A stretch of DNA of 64,000 bases from Methanomassiliicoccus luminyensis B10 (lineage in GTDB: Archaea > Thermoplasmatota > Thermoplasmata > Methanomassiliicoccales > Methanomassiliicoccaceae). Below the pieces are notes generated by a model. The model was given only the letters and a program-made list of their open reading frames with translations, made no database searches and was not told the DNA's origin. Below, one piece after another: positions 6,884 to 56,039 of this stretch. The stretch is from the NCBI RefSeq assembly GCF_000308215.1, contig NZ_CAJE01000012.1:248001-312000 (forward strand), read 5' to 3'. Numbering within the stretch: position 1 is the stretch's first letter; each line of letters begins with the position of its first letter. A program made the translations under genes and the position numbers.

Positions 6884-9763
6884 ATGTCTGAATGGACAGC
6901 TCAGATAGAAGCAAAGTGGCAGGAGCGGTGGTATGCCGCGAAGATCAATGAGTCCGAGAGGGACTCCAGACCGAAGTTCATGATCATCTTCGCGTACCCC
7001 GGTTTGACAGGCTACCTGCACGTCGGCCACATGCGCGGCTACACCTATGTGGACGCCATCGGGCGCTACATGAGGATGTCTGGCTACAATGTCCTCTTCC
7101 CGGTAGGCACTCACGCCACCGGCAATGGGGCCATCTCCCTGGCGAAAAGAATAAGGGAACGGGACCAGAAGACCATCGACTACCTGCTGGCGAACGGCTG
7201 CCCGCCGGAGAAGATCTCCGAGCTGGACGACCCGGTGTCAGTGGTCAAGTTCTTCAACCAGGTGTACGTGAACCAGTACTGGAAGAGGTTCGGCTTCCTG
7301 TCTGACTGGCGCCGGTTCACCAGCACCATCAATCCCGACTACAGCAAATTCATCCAATGGCAATTCCGGAAGCTTCACGACGCTGGCCTGCTGATACAGA
7401 AGCCTTACTATGCCCCGGCCTGCGTGGAGTGCGGCCCGGTAGCGGTGGACGCATCAGAGACGGACATCTCCAAAGGCGGGACCGCCGAGACCAATGAGTA
7501 CACACTCCTCAAGTTCAAGTGCGAGGACTTCTACCTGGTCGCTGCTACTCTGCGGCCGGAGACGGTGTATGGTCAGGTCAACTTCTGGATCAATCCTGAC
7601 GTGGAATATGTCAAAATAAGGCGCGGCGATGAGACCTGGGTCATAAGCCGCCCCTCCTTCGAGAAGATGAAGTACCAGAAGGACGGCCTCGAGATCGTCG
7701 GCACCGTCGCGGGCGCCGACCTCATCGGCAAGATGGCCCTGGCTCCCGTCATACACCGCCAGATACCGGTGCTGCCGGCATCGTTCGCCAAGCCCGAGGT
7801 CGGCACCGGCCTCGTGACCAGCGTCCCGTCGGACGCGCCGGACGACTGGATATCCCTGAAGATTCTCCAGGATGACGACGCCGCCCTGGCCAAGTACCAC
7901 CTCGATCCCGAGACGGTCAAGGCCATCAAACCGATCCCCATCATCGAGACCAAGGGGTACGGACCCCTGCCGGCGGTGGAGATGATCGAAAGGCTCGGCA
8001 TAACCAGGTCCGGCGACCCCCGGCTGGATGAAGCGAAGAAAGCCATCTACAAGGACGGCTTCCACACCGGGAAGATGAACTCGAACGCCGGGGAGTTCTC
8101 CGGCCTGAAGGTCGAGGAAGCCAAGGAGCTAATCAAGCAGATGATGATCAAGAGCGGCGAGGCCGAGCTGTTCTTCGACCTGTCCGAGGAAGTGGTATGC
8201 CGGTGCGGGCGCCCCGTGGTAATAAAGAAGGTCGATGACCAGTGGTTCATCGACTACGCCAATGCCGCCCTCACGGAGAACACCAAGGCCCACTGCCGCG
8301 CCATGCACATCCTGCCCCAGGAGTACTACGTGAACGTCCAGGGCGTGCTGGACTGGTTCAGGGAGAGGGCCTGCGTGAGGCAGGGCAACTGGCTCGGCAC
8401 GCGCTTCCCGTATGACGACAAGTGGATCATCGAGGCCATCTCCGATTCCACTCTTTATCCGGTATACTACCTTGTAGCGCATTACTACAACTGCGGGCAG
8501 CTGACCGCGGACCAGATGACCGAGGCCTTCTTCGACTACGTGCTCCTGAACAAGGGCGAAGCGTCCGAGGTGTCCAAGAAGACCGGCGTCAGCGCCGAGC
8601 TTCTGGACCGCATCAAGCAGGACGTGTACTACTGGTACCCCCTGGACATCAACCTGGGCGGCAAGGAGCACATGACCGTGCACTTCCCCGCCTTCCTGAA
8701 GAACCACGTAGCCGTCCTGCCGGAGCAGCTGTGGCCCCGGGGCATATTTGTCAACTGGTACGTCACTGGCAAGCTCGGGAAGATCTCCAAGTCCAAGGGA
8801 GGCGCCGAGCCCATCCCGGACGCGGCCGGCCGTTTCGGCGTGGACACCCTGCGCCTCTACTATGCCCACATCGCTGCCCCCTTCGCCGACGTGGAATGGG
8901 ACGAGAGCAATATAGTGAACTATTCCTCCAGGATCGACAGGGTCCTCCGGACCATCGAGGAGCTGAAGGGACTGGGCGGCTCGGAGGTCAAGAGCGTGGA
9001 CCGCTGGCTCCTGTCGCGGATGAGCAATCGCGCCGCAGCGATCCAGAAGGCCATGGAAGAATTCGACCTGCGAAAGCTCGCCAACGAGGTGTATTTCGAG
9101 ACCCTTACCGACCTGCGCTGGTACATGCGCCGGGGCGGGGACAACAAAGAAACGGCGGCCAAGGCGCTGCAGGCGTGGGTCCGCATGATGGCGCCCATCA
9201 CCCCGCACATCGCCGAGGAGATGTGGGAAGGCATAGGGGGCGAAGGCTTCGTCTCCAAGGCCTCCTACCCTGTCGCGGCAGAGGGGGACATCGATCCCCC
9301 AGCGGAGGAGGCCGAGCAGTACCTCGAGGACGTCATGACCGACGTGAACGAGATCCTCCGGGTAACGGGCATAACACCGAAGCGCGTGCTGATCTACACT
9401 ACCACGCAGTGGAAGAAGGACATCTTCGCCATCGCGCTCGACATGGCCAAGGGGAAGCAGCTGTCGGTCCCCGGGGTCACCAAGGCGGTGATGGCTCGCG
9501 ACGACCTCAAGCGCCGCGGGAAGGAATCGGCCGACTTCGCCCGCAAGATCGCCGAGGACCTCCTGAAGCGCTCCGAGAACGAGCTCGCCCGGCTGTCCAT
9601 CGATATCGATGAGCAAGCCTACCTTTCCGACGCGGCGGCGTTCCTCTCCAGCGACATGGGCTGCGAGGTGCGCGTGTGCTCCGCCGACGACGCTTCGGCG
9701 CCGGACCCCCAGAAGAAGTCCCGGGCCGCCCAGCCCCGCCGCCCGGCCATATTCGTGGAGTGA
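6884..9763 (+). CDS. leuS: Leucyl-tRNA synthetase, archaeal type
   Basis: A 959-residue class I aminoacyl-tRNA synthetase that charges tRNA-Leu. The HIGH-type motif is HVGHMR at about residues 46-51 and the KMSKS-type motif KISKSKG lies near 632, with the editing domain (CP1) between them. The anticodon-binding helical domain and an archaeal C-terminal extension follow. Length and the TGYLHVGH context are those of archaeal/eukaryotic LeuRS rather than bacterial LeuRS. ATG 6884 has AAGGTG six bases upstream. It appears monocistronic. Confidence 0.97.
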   Translation: MSEWTAQIEAKWQERWYAAKINESERDSRPKFMIIFAYPGLTGYLHVGHMRGYTYVDAIGRYMRMSGYNVLFPVGTHATGNGAISLAKRIRERDQKTIDYLLANGCPPEKISELDDPVSVVKFFNQVYVNQYWKRFGFLSDWRRFTSTINPDYSKFIQWQFRKLHDAGLLIQKPYYAPACVECGPVAVDASETDISKGGTAETNEYTLLKFKCEDFYLVAATLRPETVYGQVNFWINPDVEYVKIRRGDETWVISRPSFEKMKYQKDGLEIVGTVAGADLIGKMALAPVIHRQIPVLPASFAKPEVGTGLVTSVPSDAPDDWISLKILQDDDAALAKYHLDPETVKAIKPIPIIETKGYGPLPAVEMIERLGITRSGDPRLDEAKKAIYKDGFHTGKMNSNAGEFSGLKVEEAKELIKQMMIKSGEAELFFDLSEEVVCRCGRPVVIKKVDDQWFIDYANAALTENTKAHCRAMHILPQEYYVNVQGVLDWFRERACVRQGNWLGTRFPYDDKWIIEAISDSTLYPVYYLVAHYYNCGQLTADQMTEAFFDYVLLNKGEASEVSKKTGVSAELLDRIKQDVYYWYPLDINLGGKEHMTVHFPAFLKNHVAVLPEQLWPRGIFVNWYVTGKLGKISKSKGGAEPIPDAAGRFGVDTLRLYYAHIAAPFADVEWDESNIVNYSSRIDRVLRTIEELKGLGGSEVKSVDRWLLSRMSNRAAAIQKAMEEFDLRKLANEVYFETLTDLRWYMRRGGDNKETAAKALQAWVRMMAPITPHIAEEMWEGIGGEGFVSKASYPVAAEGDIDPPAEEAEQYLEDVMTDVNEILRVTGITPKRVLIYTTTQWKKDIFAIALDMAKGKQLSVPGVTKAVMARDDLKRRGKESADFARKIAEDLLKRSENELARLSIDIDEQAYLSDAAAFLSSDMGCEVRVCSADDASAPDPQKKSRAAQPRRPAIFVE

Positions 9764-44331: not shown

Positions 44332-44805
44332 ATGGTATCGGTGAGGTGCCCGTGGTGCGATGCCCGGATGAGCGAGGGCGACAGCGAGGCGCTGTCGTCC
44401 GCCCTGATGGTACATTTCGTAAGGACGCACGGCCTGGTGCTTCCCGATGACAGCCTCCTCCAGGGGGGAAGGGAGGGGCACCTTTCCACGCTGGCGGAAG
44501 TGCCTGACGAAACGGGTGAATACGAGGTCCGGTACGGTGCGGAAAGGTACGGAGCTGAGCTGACGCAGAGGGAGACAGACCTCTACGGGGTCCTGGGGCC
44601 GCCCCGCACCATCAATGTCCAGCGGGGAAAGGAGCTGCCGGCGGTGCAGTGCCCCCTGTGCGGGTTCGAGGTGAGGGGGAGGAACGAGAACGACCTCACC
44701 GCCGAGCTGACGCGCCATATGGCGCAGAACAACGAGCTGGAGAGCGGCCGGGAAGCCATTCCGCCGGAGAAGGATGAGCGTTCCGATTACGACAAGAGGT
44801 TTTGA
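44332..44805 (+). CDS. Zinc-finger protein, first of three tandem paralogues
   Basis: 157 residues with two C2H2-like fingers. The first has CPWC and, after a Leu-containing helix, HFVRTHG; the second, near 107-140, has CPLC and a shorter helix with one clear His (THMAQ). The fingers resemble those of small DUF1059-like proteins, in which C-x2-C is followed by about 20 residues and a His pair. A linker rich in charged residues joins them. ATG 44332 has GGAGAGGTGATGG upstream. It leads an operon with two related genes. Nucleic-acid or protein binding is possible; no function is known. Confidence 0.65.
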   Translation: MVSVRCPWCDARMSEGDSEALSSALMVHFVRTHGLVLPDDSLLQGGREGHLSTLAEVPDETGEYEVRYGAERYGAELTQRETDLYGVLGPPRTINVQRGKELPAVQCPLCGFEVRGRNENDLTAELTRHMAQNNELESGREAIPPEKDERSDYDKRF

Positions 44806-44806
44806 C

Positions 44807-45484
44807 ATGAACTCGGTCAGATGCCCGGTGTGCAACGCGAGGCTGACAGGCGAGGATTGCGACGATCTCACCGTGGGCCTGCGGGAGCACCTCGAGAGGG
44901 AGCACAACATCCAGGAGCTGTGCAATTCCCCCACCGGGGGAGTGCCGCCGTCCACGGTGGCGAGGTCCTACGAGCCCCCGGAGGAAATGGAGCCGTACCG
45001 CGAGACCGAGATGGACCGGGAGCGGCTGAGGCGGGGGAGCGAGCTGAGGGAGGCGGAGCTGAGGGATGAGACTGGGTCCTGGGGTCCGCCTGCTGGCGAG
45101 GCCTCCCTGCGCGCCCATGGGGTGGGCGGATGGTTCAGGAAGACCCTGGGCCTGGGGTATGGGGACCGGCCCGACCAGGGGGGCGAATGGGCCCGCGGCG
45201 GGAGGTATTCCGGCGCGGACGTCGCGCCCCGCCATCCGGCCCCGGAAGGCTCCTCCGTCAGGGAGGAGTATGGTAAGGAGAGGGGCCGGAGAAGAGAGAG
45301 GGTCCCAGGCAGGGAGCCGGCCGGTCCGTCGATGGGGCTGGCCCACGGGGACCACGTCGACTGCCCCATGTGCGGCATGCACCTGAGCGGGGCGGACGAG
45401 GACGAATTGTCGGTCGCGCTGAGGGAGCACATGATCTCCATGCACGAGGTCGCGCCCCTCATGACCATGAGGCCGAGGGCGTGA
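44807..45484 (+). CDS. Zinc-finger protein, second paralogue, with long charged linker
   Basis: 225 residues. The N-terminal finger is CPVCNARL followed by REHLEREHN; the C-terminal finger is CPMCGMHL followed by REHMISMHE. In both, Leu-x-x-x-Leu-x-x-H places the helix. Between them about 130 residues are rich in Glu, Arg, Gly and Pro and probably disordered. ATG 44807 lies one base after the first gene's stop. The wide spacing of fingers could let it bridge two sites or partners. Confidence 0.65.
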   Translation: MNSVRCPVCNARLTGEDCDDLTVGLREHLEREHNIQELCNSPTGGVPPSTVARSYEPPEEMEPYRETEMDRERLRRGSELREAELRDETGSWGPPAGEASLRAHGVGGWFRKTLGLGYGDRPDQGGEWARGGRYSGADVAPRHPAPEGSSVREEYGKERGRRRERVPGREPAGPSMGLAHGDHVDCPMCGMHLSGADEDELSVALREHMISMHEVAPLMTMRPRA

Positions 45485-45486
45485 CC

Positions 45487-45789
45487 ATGACGGCCCTGAG
45501 ATGCCCGATGTGCCCTGAGGTCCTGGAAGGCGAAGGGGTGGCTCTAACGCACTCCCTGAGGGACCACCTCTCCGACGTCCACGGCATGGCGGACCTATGC
45601 ATGGACCCAGAGAGGCTGCGCTCCAGCCCCCCGGCCGTTCTGGAAGGGTATGTGGGGGTGACGTGCCCGGTGTGCGCGGCAAGCATCGCCGCCGCGGACG
45701 ACCGGCTGCTCTCCGAAGGGCTCCGGGCGCACTTCGGTAACGTGCACGGCATAAGGTCGTCGAGCCTGCTGGAGCGGCTCCGCCGCTGA
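45487..45789 (+). CDS. Zinc-finger protein, third paralogue
   Basis: 100 residues, again two fingers: CPMCPEVL with RDHLSDVHG, and CPVCAASI with RAHFGNVHG. It is the most compact of the three, with a 25-residue linker. ATG 45487 follows the previous gene by two bases. The third gene ends where the convergent flavin reductase gene ends. Tandem triplication of a two-finger protein points to local duplication and divergence. Confidence 0.65.
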   Translation: MTALRCPMCPEVLEGEGVALTHSLRDHLSDVHGMADLCMDPERLRSSPPAVLEGYVGVTCPVCAASIAAADDRLLSEGLRAHFGNVHGIRSSSLLERLRR

Positions 45790-52140: not shown

Positions 52141-52176
52141 CAAATATAATTATGACCATCTACGGTCCAATGGACC
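52141..52176 (+). promoter_or_regulatory. Promoter with palindromic operator candidate for the sheath gene
   Basis: A TATA box (caaatataat, 52141-52150) is followed about 25 bases later, over the expected transcription start, by GGTCCAATGGACC (52164-52176), an inverted repeat with 6-base arms. The leader to the TTG start is about 75 bases. Confidence 0.5.
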
Positions 52177-52246: not shown

Positions 52247-53506
52247 TTGGACAGATTGAGCTATCCGAGCGTTCACGTTCAGCAGATACCTTGTAATGCA
52301 CAGCCCCTTACCGGAGCGCCCACGTCCGTCGCGGCGTTCATAGGCCGCACTTCCACCGGACCGGTGGACAAGGCGGTTCGAGTGCGTAGCTGGAGCGAGT
52401 TCACCAACACCTTCGGGGGAGCGCTCCCCGGGAGCGAGCTGAGCGTGAGCATCCGCCTGTTCTTCGAGAACGGGGGGACCGAATGCCAGGTGGTCCGGGT
52501 GGGAGGGGACGAGCCGATAGCGGCCGACGTCCTTGGCAGCAAGAGCGCAAGGACCGGCATGTACGCGCTGGACGCGGTCAGCGACGTCAACATATTGATC
52601 CTTCCGAGCGATACCGAGATCGACCTATCCGGGGCATGGGCCCCGGCATCCCAGTACTGCGCCCGGCGGGGCGCCTTCCTTCTCATAGATCCCCCGGCCG
52701 GATGGACCAGGGCCGGACGCGCCGAGGCGGCCCACAACCCGTACCTTGTCGACGAACTCCGTCGCGGGGCCGATCAGGACCATTGCGCGGCGTTCTATCC
52801 CCGCCTGATGGTAAGTGATGAAGGTGAGGCAAGGGCCGTGGGCCCCTCTGGAGCGGTGGCCGGGCTGATGGCCAGGACCGACGCCGAAAAGGGAGTATGG
52901 GCTTCCATGGCCGGCCTGGGGGCCGACCTGCGCTCCGTCGACCGCCTGGAAGTGGAGCTGGACGAACGGGAGGTCAACAATCTCACCGTCCAGGGAGTGA
53001 ACCCTCTGCTTCGGAAGAACGGCAAGTGCGTATCGTGGGGCAATTTCACCTTCCGCAGTCTCTTCGAACCCCCCACCGGGCTGAGGTACATCCCCGTTGC
53101 CCGGACCAAGATGTTCTTAGAGGGATCGGTGCGCCGCGGGACCCAGTGGACAGCGTTCGAGCTGAACGACGAGGTGCTGTGGGCCAAGGTCAGGACCCAT
53201 GTCACCGAGTTCATGCTGCGGCTGTGGCGCTTCAACGCGTTCGTCGGGGATGCTCCCAGCCAGTCGTTCTACGTCAAGTGCGACGCCGAGACCACTGCCA
53301 TCGAGGACCGGGCCCGGGGGGTCCTGAACCTCCAGGTCGGCTTTGCCCCACTGAGGCCCGCCGAGTTCCTGGTGATCAGGGTTCAGTGCCAGGCCGTTCC
53401 CGCCGCGCCCCCTGCGCCGACGGTGGTCAGGCCCACGCTGAACGTCGGAAGGGTCATATCTTCTTCCGGCAGAACCACCAATCCAGGCAGCCGGACCTAT
53501 CCTTGA
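52247..53506 (+). CDS. Contractile tail sheath protein (phage/eCIS type), isolated
   Basis: 419 residues. The N-terminus is typical of contractile sheaths: YPSVHVQQIPC, TSVAAFIGRTSTGPVDKAVRV and a FTNTFGG segment, then FFENGGTECQVVRVGG. The C-terminal domain is also clear: SGAVAGLMARTDAEKGVW, VNPLLRKNGKCVSWG, RRGTQWTAFELNDEVLWAKV and FAPLRPAEFLVIRVQ. Such proteins form the contracting sleeve of phage tails and extracellular injection systems. No tube, baseplate, spike or ATPase gene is nearby. TTG 52247 is supported by GGAGG eight bases upstream. Its 3' end overlaps the convergent peroxiredoxin gene by 53 bases. Confidence 0.88.
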   Translation: MDRLSYPSVHVQQIPCNAQPLTGAPTSVAAFIGRTSTGPVDKAVRVRSWSEFTNTFGGALPGSELSVSIRLFFENGGTECQVVRVGGDEPIAADVLGSKSARTGMYALDAVSDVNILILPSDTEIDLSGAWAPASQYCARRGAFLLIDPPAGWTRAGRAEAAHNPYLVDELRRGADQDHCAAFYPRLMVSDEGEARAVGPSGAVAGLMARTDAEKGVWASMAGLGADLRSVDRLEVELDEREVNNLTVQGVNPLLRKNGKCVSWGNFTFRSLFEPPTGLRYIPVARTKMFLEGSVRRGTQWTAFELNDEVLWAKVRTHVTEFMLRLWRFNAFVGDAPSQSFYVKCDAETTAIEDRARGVLNLQVGFAPLRPAEFLVIRVQCQAVPAAPPAPTVVRPTLNVGRVISSSGRTTNPGSRTYP

Positions 53507-54125
53507 TGGCCATGGCGCCCTTGACGTCGGTGGGCGGGCGCTCCAGGACATCGGAGCCGATGAACTCGTTCTCGGGCCAGTTGGCCGGGGTGACCACGCC
53601 GTGCTCCTCCACCACTTTGAGGGCCTTGACGACCCGAAGGAGTTCCTCGATGTTCCGCCCCACGCCCTTGGGGTAGAACAGCACCGAGGCGATCTTGCCC
53701 TTGGGGTTCACGAAAAAGCACGCCCTTATCGCCCCTCCGTCCGGGTGGGGGTGGATGGTGCCGAACATGCTGGATATCTCTCTGAGGGAATCTGCGATGA
53801 TGGGAAAGGTGATCTCCACGTCCAGCTTCTCCTTGATCCACTCCACCCACTTTATGTGCGAGAATAGGGAATCAGCGGACAGCCCGATGAGCTCGCAGTT
53901 GAGCTCGCGGAACTTCTGGTGGTTCATGGCAAACGAGGAGAACTCCGTCGTGCACACTGGGGTGAAGTCCGCGGGGTGGCTGAACAGCAGGAACCACTTT
54001 CCGGCGAAATGGTCCGGCAGGGATATGGGACCCATCGTGGTCTTCACCTTGATCTTCGGGAACGCCTCCCCTATGCTGGGGATGCACACTCTCTGAAGCT
54101 TTGGTTCGGCGGCATCTTCGGACAT
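53454..54125 (-). CDS. Peroxiredoxin, Prx6-like
   Basis: 223 residues. The peroxidatic Cys58 is in FTPVCTTE, with the following AMNHQKFRELNCELIGLSADS. FVNPKGKIASVLFYP leads to the C-terminal dimer arm. A pair C213/C219 in GCLDWWFC probably supplies the resolving cysteine, as in archaeal Prx6-type enzymes. It reduces hydrogen peroxide and organic peroxides, and is fed by thioredoxin-like donors such as those at 43-44 kb. ATG 54125 is clear. Confidence 0.95.
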   Translation of the reverse strand: MSEDAAEPKLQRVCIPSIGEAFPKIKVKTTMGPISLPDHFAGKWFLLFSHPADFTPVCTTEFSSFAMNHQKFRELNCELIGLSADSLFSHIKWVEWIKEKLDVEITFPIIADSLREISSMFGTIHPHPDGGAIRACFFVNPKGKIASVLFYPKGVGRNIEELLRVVKALKVVEEHGVVTPANWPENEFIGSDVLERPPTDVKGAMAIKDRSGCLDWWFCRKKI

Positions 54126-55028: not shown

Positions 55029-55559
55029 ATGGCAGAGGTAAAGGATTTCGCCGGAAAGACGCTTGAGTGGGCCCGGAAGGGCATCATGGACCGCAACTAC
55101 GAACTGCGAGGCGGGAACGAGATCGTCGCCACTATCACCTGGACAAAGATATGGGGGACCCTGGCGGAGGGCACCATAGGCGGCATCAAGTACACGCTCA
55201 AGCGCAACGGGTTCTTCAACCCCTACATTACCGTGAGGAAGCCGCCCTTCGACGAGGACGTGGCCCGCTTGGACATGAAGATCGGCGGCAACGGGACCCT
55301 GCAATTCCCGAACGGCAAGAGGTACTCTTTCCAGAAGATGTCCTTCTGGGGGTTCAAGTGGTCGTTCACCAACGAGAACGGCGATCTCATCATGACGGTG
55401 GGCGCGCCGTCGCTGGTGAAGAGCAAGGGAGAGATCGTCATCGAGCCGGGAGCGGCCTCGGACCGGAACCTGCCCCTGCTGGTCCTGCTGTGCTGGTACA
55501 CCGCCGTGCAAATGATCGAAGAGGCCACCACGGCCGCGGCGAGTTCGGCCGGTGCGTGA
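55029..55559 (+). CDS. Tubby C-terminal/LURP-one-like domain protein
   Basis: 176 residues, mostly beta strands with a hydrophobic C-terminal helix (LPLLVLLCWYTAVQM), the pattern of LURP-one/scramblase-like barrels. Repeating strand pairs include YELRGGNEIVATITW, GIKYTLKRNGFFNPYITVRK and SFTNENGDLIMTV. No catalytic motif. It may bind lipid or membranes. A related gene follows after nine bases. The family call is from fold pattern, not strong motifs. Confidence 0.5.
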   Translation: MAEVKDFAGKTLEWARKGIMDRNYELRGGNEIVATITWTKIWGTLAEGTIGGIKYTLKRNGFFNPYITVRKPPFDEDVARLDMKIGGNGTLQFPNGKRYSFQKMSFWGFKWSFTNENGDLIMTVGAPSLVKSKGEIVIEPGAASDRNLPLLVLLCWYTAVQMIEEATTAAASSAGA

Positions 55560-55568
55560 GGTCATCCC

Positions 55569-56039
55569 ATGGACCTGACGGGAGCGCTGACATGGGCGAG
55601 GCCGAGCAGGGTGAGCATGAAGTGGGAGCTGAAGAAGGGGGACGATGTGATCGGCGCGATGTCCCCGCCCCACACCTTCGGCACCAGCGTGACGGCGTCG
55701 TTCGGCGCGGATGGCTATAATATCAGGAAAGGGGGGATAAGGCACTCAGGCGCGGCCATCTGGAAGGTCGGCAGCGAGGACAAGCTGGCCACGATGGTGG
55801 TGGGCTCGCTGGGGAAGGACACCGTGATCGCGCAGGATGGTTCCACCTATCAGCTGTCCCAGCTCGGGTCGCCGGACGACTGGATACTGTCCACAGCGGA
55901 CGGGAAGGATATCTTCAGCGTGCACCGGGAGACCGCGGGGAAGAAGCCCGGCGGCGTGGTGGACGTGAAGTCCCCGGACCCGCATCTGTCCGAGCTTCTC
56001 CTCCTTTGCTGGTTCGTGATCTCGACCTCGGAGCGCTGA
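55569..56039 (+). CDS. Tubby C-terminal/LURP-one-like domain protein, paralogue
   Basis: 156 residues. It repeats the plan of its neighbour: MKWELKKGDDVIGAM, YNIRKGGIRHSGAAIW, DDWILSTADGKDIFSV and an apolar tail LSELLLLCWFVIS that mirrors the first protein's end. The two are clearly paralogous but diverged, perhaps forming a heteromeric barrel pair. It is followed after three bases by a methyltransferase gene, so the three are one operon. Confidence 0.5.
   Translation: MDLTGALTWARPSRVSMKWELKKGDDVIGAMSPPHTFGTSVTASFGADGYNIRKGGIRHSGAAIWKVGSEDKLATMVVGSLGKDTVIAQDGSTYQLSQLGSPDDWILSTADGKDIFSVHRETAGKKPGGVVDVKSPDPHLSELLLLCWFVISTSER

Follow-up and report, generated by a model that had tools for sequence, protein, structure and literature searches.

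A contractile-injection-system sheath gene standing alone in Methanomassiliicoccus luminyensis and in related archaea

The window analysed here, a stretch of 64,000 nucleotides from Methanomassiliicoccus luminyensis B10, lies within a 765-kb contig (C12) of a 2.62-Mb genome that is 99.7% complete. At 52247-53506 on its plus strand, it carries an open reading frame that starts with TTG, stops at 53504-53506 and encodes 419 amino acids. We confirmed that this is a real gene for a complete sheath of a contractile injection system (CIS). The features of the locus are listed below.

52142-52149, plus strand: TATA-box-like AAATATAA, a candidate promoter element by motif, 97 nt 5' of the start codon
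52233-52238, plus strand: Shine-Dalgarno-like AGGAGG (motif), 8 nt 5' of the TTG
52247-53506, plus strand: lone CIS-type tail sheath gene (profile, PDB and structure-model matches)
52247-52327, plus strand: N-terminal arm, residues 1-27, with 6 conserved residues changed (alignment, model)
52328-53350, plus strand: sheath wall domains, residues 28-368 (model, structure matches)
53351-53395, plus strand: C-terminal arm region, residues 369-383, with a strand at 375-382, ...PAEFLVIRVQ (alignment, model)
53396-53503, plus strand: C-terminal extension, residues 384-419, a low-confidence coil (model)

In profile searches, the product matched PF17482 at 30.7 bits (cut-off 26.9), while its score against PF04984, 29.5, fell slightly below the cut-off of 31.4. 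The tail sheath family phrog_23 of PHROG was matched with an E value of 4.4e-43, and the Streptomyces CIS sheath in PDB entry 8bky with one of 8.1e-54, in two stretches covering residues 6-98 and 89-379. An AlphaFold model with a 42-sequence input reached a pLDDT of 86.9 and a pTM of 0.84, and its top Foldseek matches in the PDB were CIS sheaths in the extended and contracted states (best E value 1.8e-28). Across Pfam, PHROG, PDB and the model, sheath fold and sequence profile extended over the whole protein. Phage proteins matched less well, the best among the matches listed having an E value of 1e-21 with 28% identity and 72% query coverage, so that the sheath is akin to those of injection systems and not of phages. 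In known sheath structures, the N-terminal arm joins adjacent subunits (PMC8894135). A first-pass annotation of the window had described both end domains as intact; this holds for their folds but not for the conserved arm residues, G8, Y10, E13, G17, K370 and Q381 being changed.

The same annotation credited the gene with strong Shine-Dalgarno and TATA signals. Motifs of the AAATATAA type occur three times in the window versus 0.16 expected. AGGAGG followed by TTG at a distance of 4 to 10 nucleotides was seen three times against 4.4 expected, and by itself is no rarer than chance; the TTG start is instead backed by a matching protein start in relatives.

The gene is surrounded by hisD and genes for a YhfC-type metalloprotease, a bPH_5-domain protein and a peroxiredoxin, the last being convergent (53454-54125, minus strand) and overlapping at its 3' end the end of the sheath's C-terminal extension. 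These are the housekeeping, non-prophage surroundings that had been claimed for it. On the evidence of tail genes and tRNAs, a prophage was rejected, there being no tail-gene matches near the sheath and no tRNA in the window. Contamination of the assembly is unlikely, because the gene lies inside the 765-kb contig and its GC3, 0.80, matches that of its neighbours (0.77-0.86). Elsewhere in the window, adjacent genes at 44332-45789 encode small proteins with paired Cys/His motifs (CxxC...H repeats) that appear zinc-finger-like and match zf-BED and DUF1059 weakly. Two adjacent genes at 55029-56039, of 176 and 156 amino acids and with no Pfam match, appear to share the ending LLLCW and are possibly paralogues.

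The absence of partner genes from the 64 kb, also noted earlier, was borne out, and extends genome-wide for the parts searched, namely sheath, tube, gp25, Phage_base_V and Baseplate_J, the CIS ATPase family being too general for such a search. The window sheath is the only one in its genome. No tube was found there by PF06841 or by a model built from the nearest relatives; the PF06841 search does ring in relatives, G002 and G004 among them, and hence works. The gp25 baseplate family gave no match above its cut-off in the genome (one at 11.5 bits, cut-off 27.2), and neither the spike family Phage_base_V nor Baseplate_J was found there. A search with Pvc16_N, the tail terminator, had no match, but its positive controls were silent as well. 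When proteins of 13 related CIS loci were compared with the window, they matched the sheath only, besides places hit by a single protein, all of which were matches to one flanking protein of ABC ATPase appearance. No other CIS protein match, and thus no multi-gene cluster, was seen in the window, at L217 or near the lone sheaths of related genomes. The searches for sheath, tube, gp25, Phage_base_V and Baseplate_J likewise gave no second CIS cluster elsewhere in the genome; a full cluster with its own sheath, which the first-pass annotation had named as evidence against an orphan, did not turn up. That the sheath acts together with a particle whose genes lie elsewhere, as it also suggested, is improbable, since searches of the genome yielded neither tube nor baseplate nor spike.

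Several known systems resemble this sheath. That of the Streptomyces coelicolor CIS (8bky, 8bl4, 9gtp, 9gts) has the same fold, matched by structure with an E value of 1.8e-28, and its N- and C-terminal regions align with those of the window protein; however, it is about 530 amino acids long, is clustered with tube and baseplate, and keeps the residues that are changed in the window. The sheath of the archaeal CIS, or T6SS-like system, of Halogeometricum borinquense (PDB 9ezm; PMC11566945) matches with an E value of 2e-48 and is archaeal too, but forms part of a contractile system that is complete and functional, whereas no partner that was searched for lies in the window. The nearest sheaths in the tree, those of Plasticicumulans (L024), Cellvibrio (L028), Bacteroidetes (L027) and Chloroflexi (L026), are at most 48% identical. 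They measure about 800-980 amino acids, carry a large outer insert in the wall and have a tube directly downstream; the window protein lacks both the insert and such neighbours. On lone or domesticated sheaths and on CIS in this archaeal class, the literature consulted, with few subscription papers in it, gave only a listed Thermoplasmata sheath.

Sheaths of the CIS type were found in 8 of 101 genomes of the group, i.e. in 7 of 100 relatives. At the loci fetched, each of the relatives' sheaths is alone, in several unrelated neighbourhoods, with metabolic or unrelated genes and no tail gene around it; a prophage setting was rejected here too, no phage genes being seen. Intact lone sheaths are present in G004, G008, G010, G040 and G054 besides the window's genome, and the copy in G002 is cut by a contig end. 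In genus g3, the sheath faces an AMP-binding acyl-CoA synthetase in G002, G004, G010 and G012; in G008 one gene lies between the two, and G006, also of g3, has the synthetase locus without the sheath. The enzyme-adjacent copy in G012 (L020:2654-4169, minus strand) has decayed to a pseudogene, its frame being broken by four internal stops and two frameshifts. Decay in relatives, which had been put forward as counting against the orphan, is therefore partly seen, in this pseudogene and in the many relatives without the gene, although most copies are intact. A functional tie to the acyl-CoA synthetase was considered and rejected: the adjacency is limited to g3, the window's nearest such gene being some 20 kb off, and is probably a trace of rearrangement.

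Between G004 and G002, the sole pair close enough for dN/dS (lineage g3; the window copy lacks a relative this close), the sheaths are 82% identical with a dN of 0.088, a dS of 0.43 and a ratio of 0.21, versus a dN of 0.019, a dS of 0.42 and a ratio of 0.045 for the flanking enzyme. Judged from these sequences, the sheath in this pair is under purifying selection, weaker than that on the enzyme, and the gene is dispensable. Neutral drift simulated to 48% identity left about seven stops, and at least five in every run, so that an open frame at such divergence is not expected from neutrality. Lone copies of g3 remain open reading frames after deep divergence.

In two of these genomes, a tail-tube gene likewise stands alone, on a contig other than that of the sheath: L103:9479-9982 (minus strand) in G004 and L104:9667-10170 (plus strand) in G002. 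The tube is intact, 168 amino acids long, and matches PF06841 at 58 bits in G004; its structure was modelled with moderate confidence (pLDDT 71). The two copies share 67% identity with a dN/dS of about 0.25, and 24-27% identity with clustered tubes. The lone tube faces a paralogue of the acyl-CoA synthetase, a different one from the paralogue faced by the genus's lone sheath.

Lone sheaths are not confined to archaea. Among the 80 best genome matches, most other sheath loci have a tube directly downstream, but none was found in the fetched flanks (about 4-8 kb) of the sheaths of Achromobacter, Reyranella, Lysobacter, two Agromyces and a gammaproteobacterial bin. The positions are as follows.

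L023, L025, L034, L036 and L046, about 8001-9150, and L033, 5001-6116: tube-less sheaths of these six bacteria

Around the two lone sheaths of Agromyces, the stretches that match are not collinear.

In a tree of 124 sheath sequences, the window protein groups with the full-cluster sheaths of Plasticicumulans, Chloroflexi, Cellvibrio and Bacteroidetes (support 99 in an 11-row set), the g3 copies group with the lone sheaths of Agromyces and Nitrospira, and those of G040 and G054 take a third place. The window branch is long (1.59), which makes its position uncertain. A single ancestral lone sheath for the whole order, with all archaeal copies in one clade, was rejected (AU p=0.0148), while one clade for the window and g3 copies was not (p=0.366). 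At least two introductions thus took place; three separate placements are suggested by the tree but not proven. The window sheath was probably acquired horizontally, and is related to bacterial CIS sheaths.

Lone sheaths also share a change in sequence. A reference set was made up of sheaths from clusters and from viral contigs; 99 of its columns are at least 85% conserved. The window protein keeps 70 of the 99, other archaeal lone sheaths 75-80 and bacterial ones 75-83, while reference members, each left out in turn, mostly keep 91-99 of 99-101. Five divergent reference members keep 91-93 of 120-122, about 75%, and the lone sheaths therefore overlap with them in residue retention; part of the divergence of the window sheath may predate its lone state. 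Both arms of the window protein are present and aligned, yet 9 of their 17 conserved residues are changed, versus 20 of 82 elsewhere (p=0.037, uncorrected). The common shift of lone sheaths off near-invariant residues fits a release from the machine.

What might a sheath do by itself? When tube and baseplate are lacking, sheath proteins form stable tubes of contracted-state subunits, the polysheaths (PMC6357053; PMC6088184), or rings. Those of T4 gp18, phiKZ and FV3 gp053 (PMC6357053) offer a model for a sheath without these partners, although they are phage proteins over-expressed in the laboratory. By analogy, the default activity of the window protein, if it has any, would be self-assembly. 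We tentatively favour, with a probability of about 0.45, the reading that a CIS sheath has been kept as a stand-alone two-domain gene, outside an injection machine, and works by self-assembly. The gene would have arrived by horizontal transfer from bacterial-type CIS kin and been kept alone in a minimal form, pared down to the wall domains. Its product would no longer serve an injection machine, and may assemble in the cell into a static tubule, ring or scaffold, not a contracting weapon. Lone retention in relatives, purifying selection where testable and the altered residues lend such a recruitment indirect support. Against a retained function count the G012 pseudogene, the many relatives without the gene and the ratio of 0.21 for the sheath versus 0.045 for the enzyme; against self-assembly counts the loss of conserved residues in the very arms that would mediate it.

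The main rival, which we regard as somewhat less likely, is that CIS genes entered by horizontal transfer, the cluster was lost, and the sheath is a slowly decaying remnant without function. In its favour are the pseudogene of G012, the clean lack of the gene in G006 and in most relatives, a scattered distribution that goes back to at least two origins, the looser constraint on conserved residues and a lone, diverged tube in two relatives. Less easily reconciled with a remnant are the frames still open in six genomes, the purifying selection between G004 and G002, the lack of stops where drift should leave several, and the several independent lone cases. Both of the remaining explanations are less likely than this. 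Interference, in which a lone sheath co-assembles with or blocks the sheaths of contractile-tailed viruses or foreign injection systems as a decoy, is improbable: a protein of this fold could in principle enter a foreign sheath, and retention of a single part, patchiness and fast change would be accounted for, but no lone locus has a defence-island context, and the kinship is to CIS and not to phage sheaths. Least probable is a dispersed machine, with tube and baseplate encoded elsewhere and too diverged to detect; the constrained lone tubes of G002 and G004, which like the sheaths face a synthetase paralogue, indicate that CIS genes can disperse, but they are distant from clustered tubes, the window's genome has no tube by either search, and neither Baseplate_J nor an above-cut-off Phage_base_V was found in the nine genomes searched, G002 and G004 included.

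A wider form of the self-assembly reading is that CIS sheaths standing alone were turned on more than one occasion, in both archaea and bacteria, into self-assembling tubules or scaffolds, or else into poisons against contractile tails of foreign origin, without injection function, and so make up a class of domesticated sheaths; this we consider rather doubtful. What is new here is the occurrence of lone sheaths in 7 of 100 relatives, mostly intact, with one pair under purifying selection and one copy decayed. In surveys, an injection system is recognised by its cluster of core genes, e.g. at least 10 (PMC8213781), and by that definition lone parts go uncounted. If functional, lone sheaths would be a natural counterpart of laboratory polysheaths, and an example of an injection-machine component taken over for a different task. 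Even as relics, they would show that CIS genes arrived in these archaea on more than one occasion, and that a sheath domain by itself should not count as a marker of injection systems, unlike the use made of PF04984 (PMC12352652).

A minor observation concerns the gene directly downstream of the Nitrospira lone sheath (L029:4132-4716, plus strand), which has no Pfam match and whose product starts with FSGRLLSADDF. This start presumably resembles those of proteins near CIS clusters.
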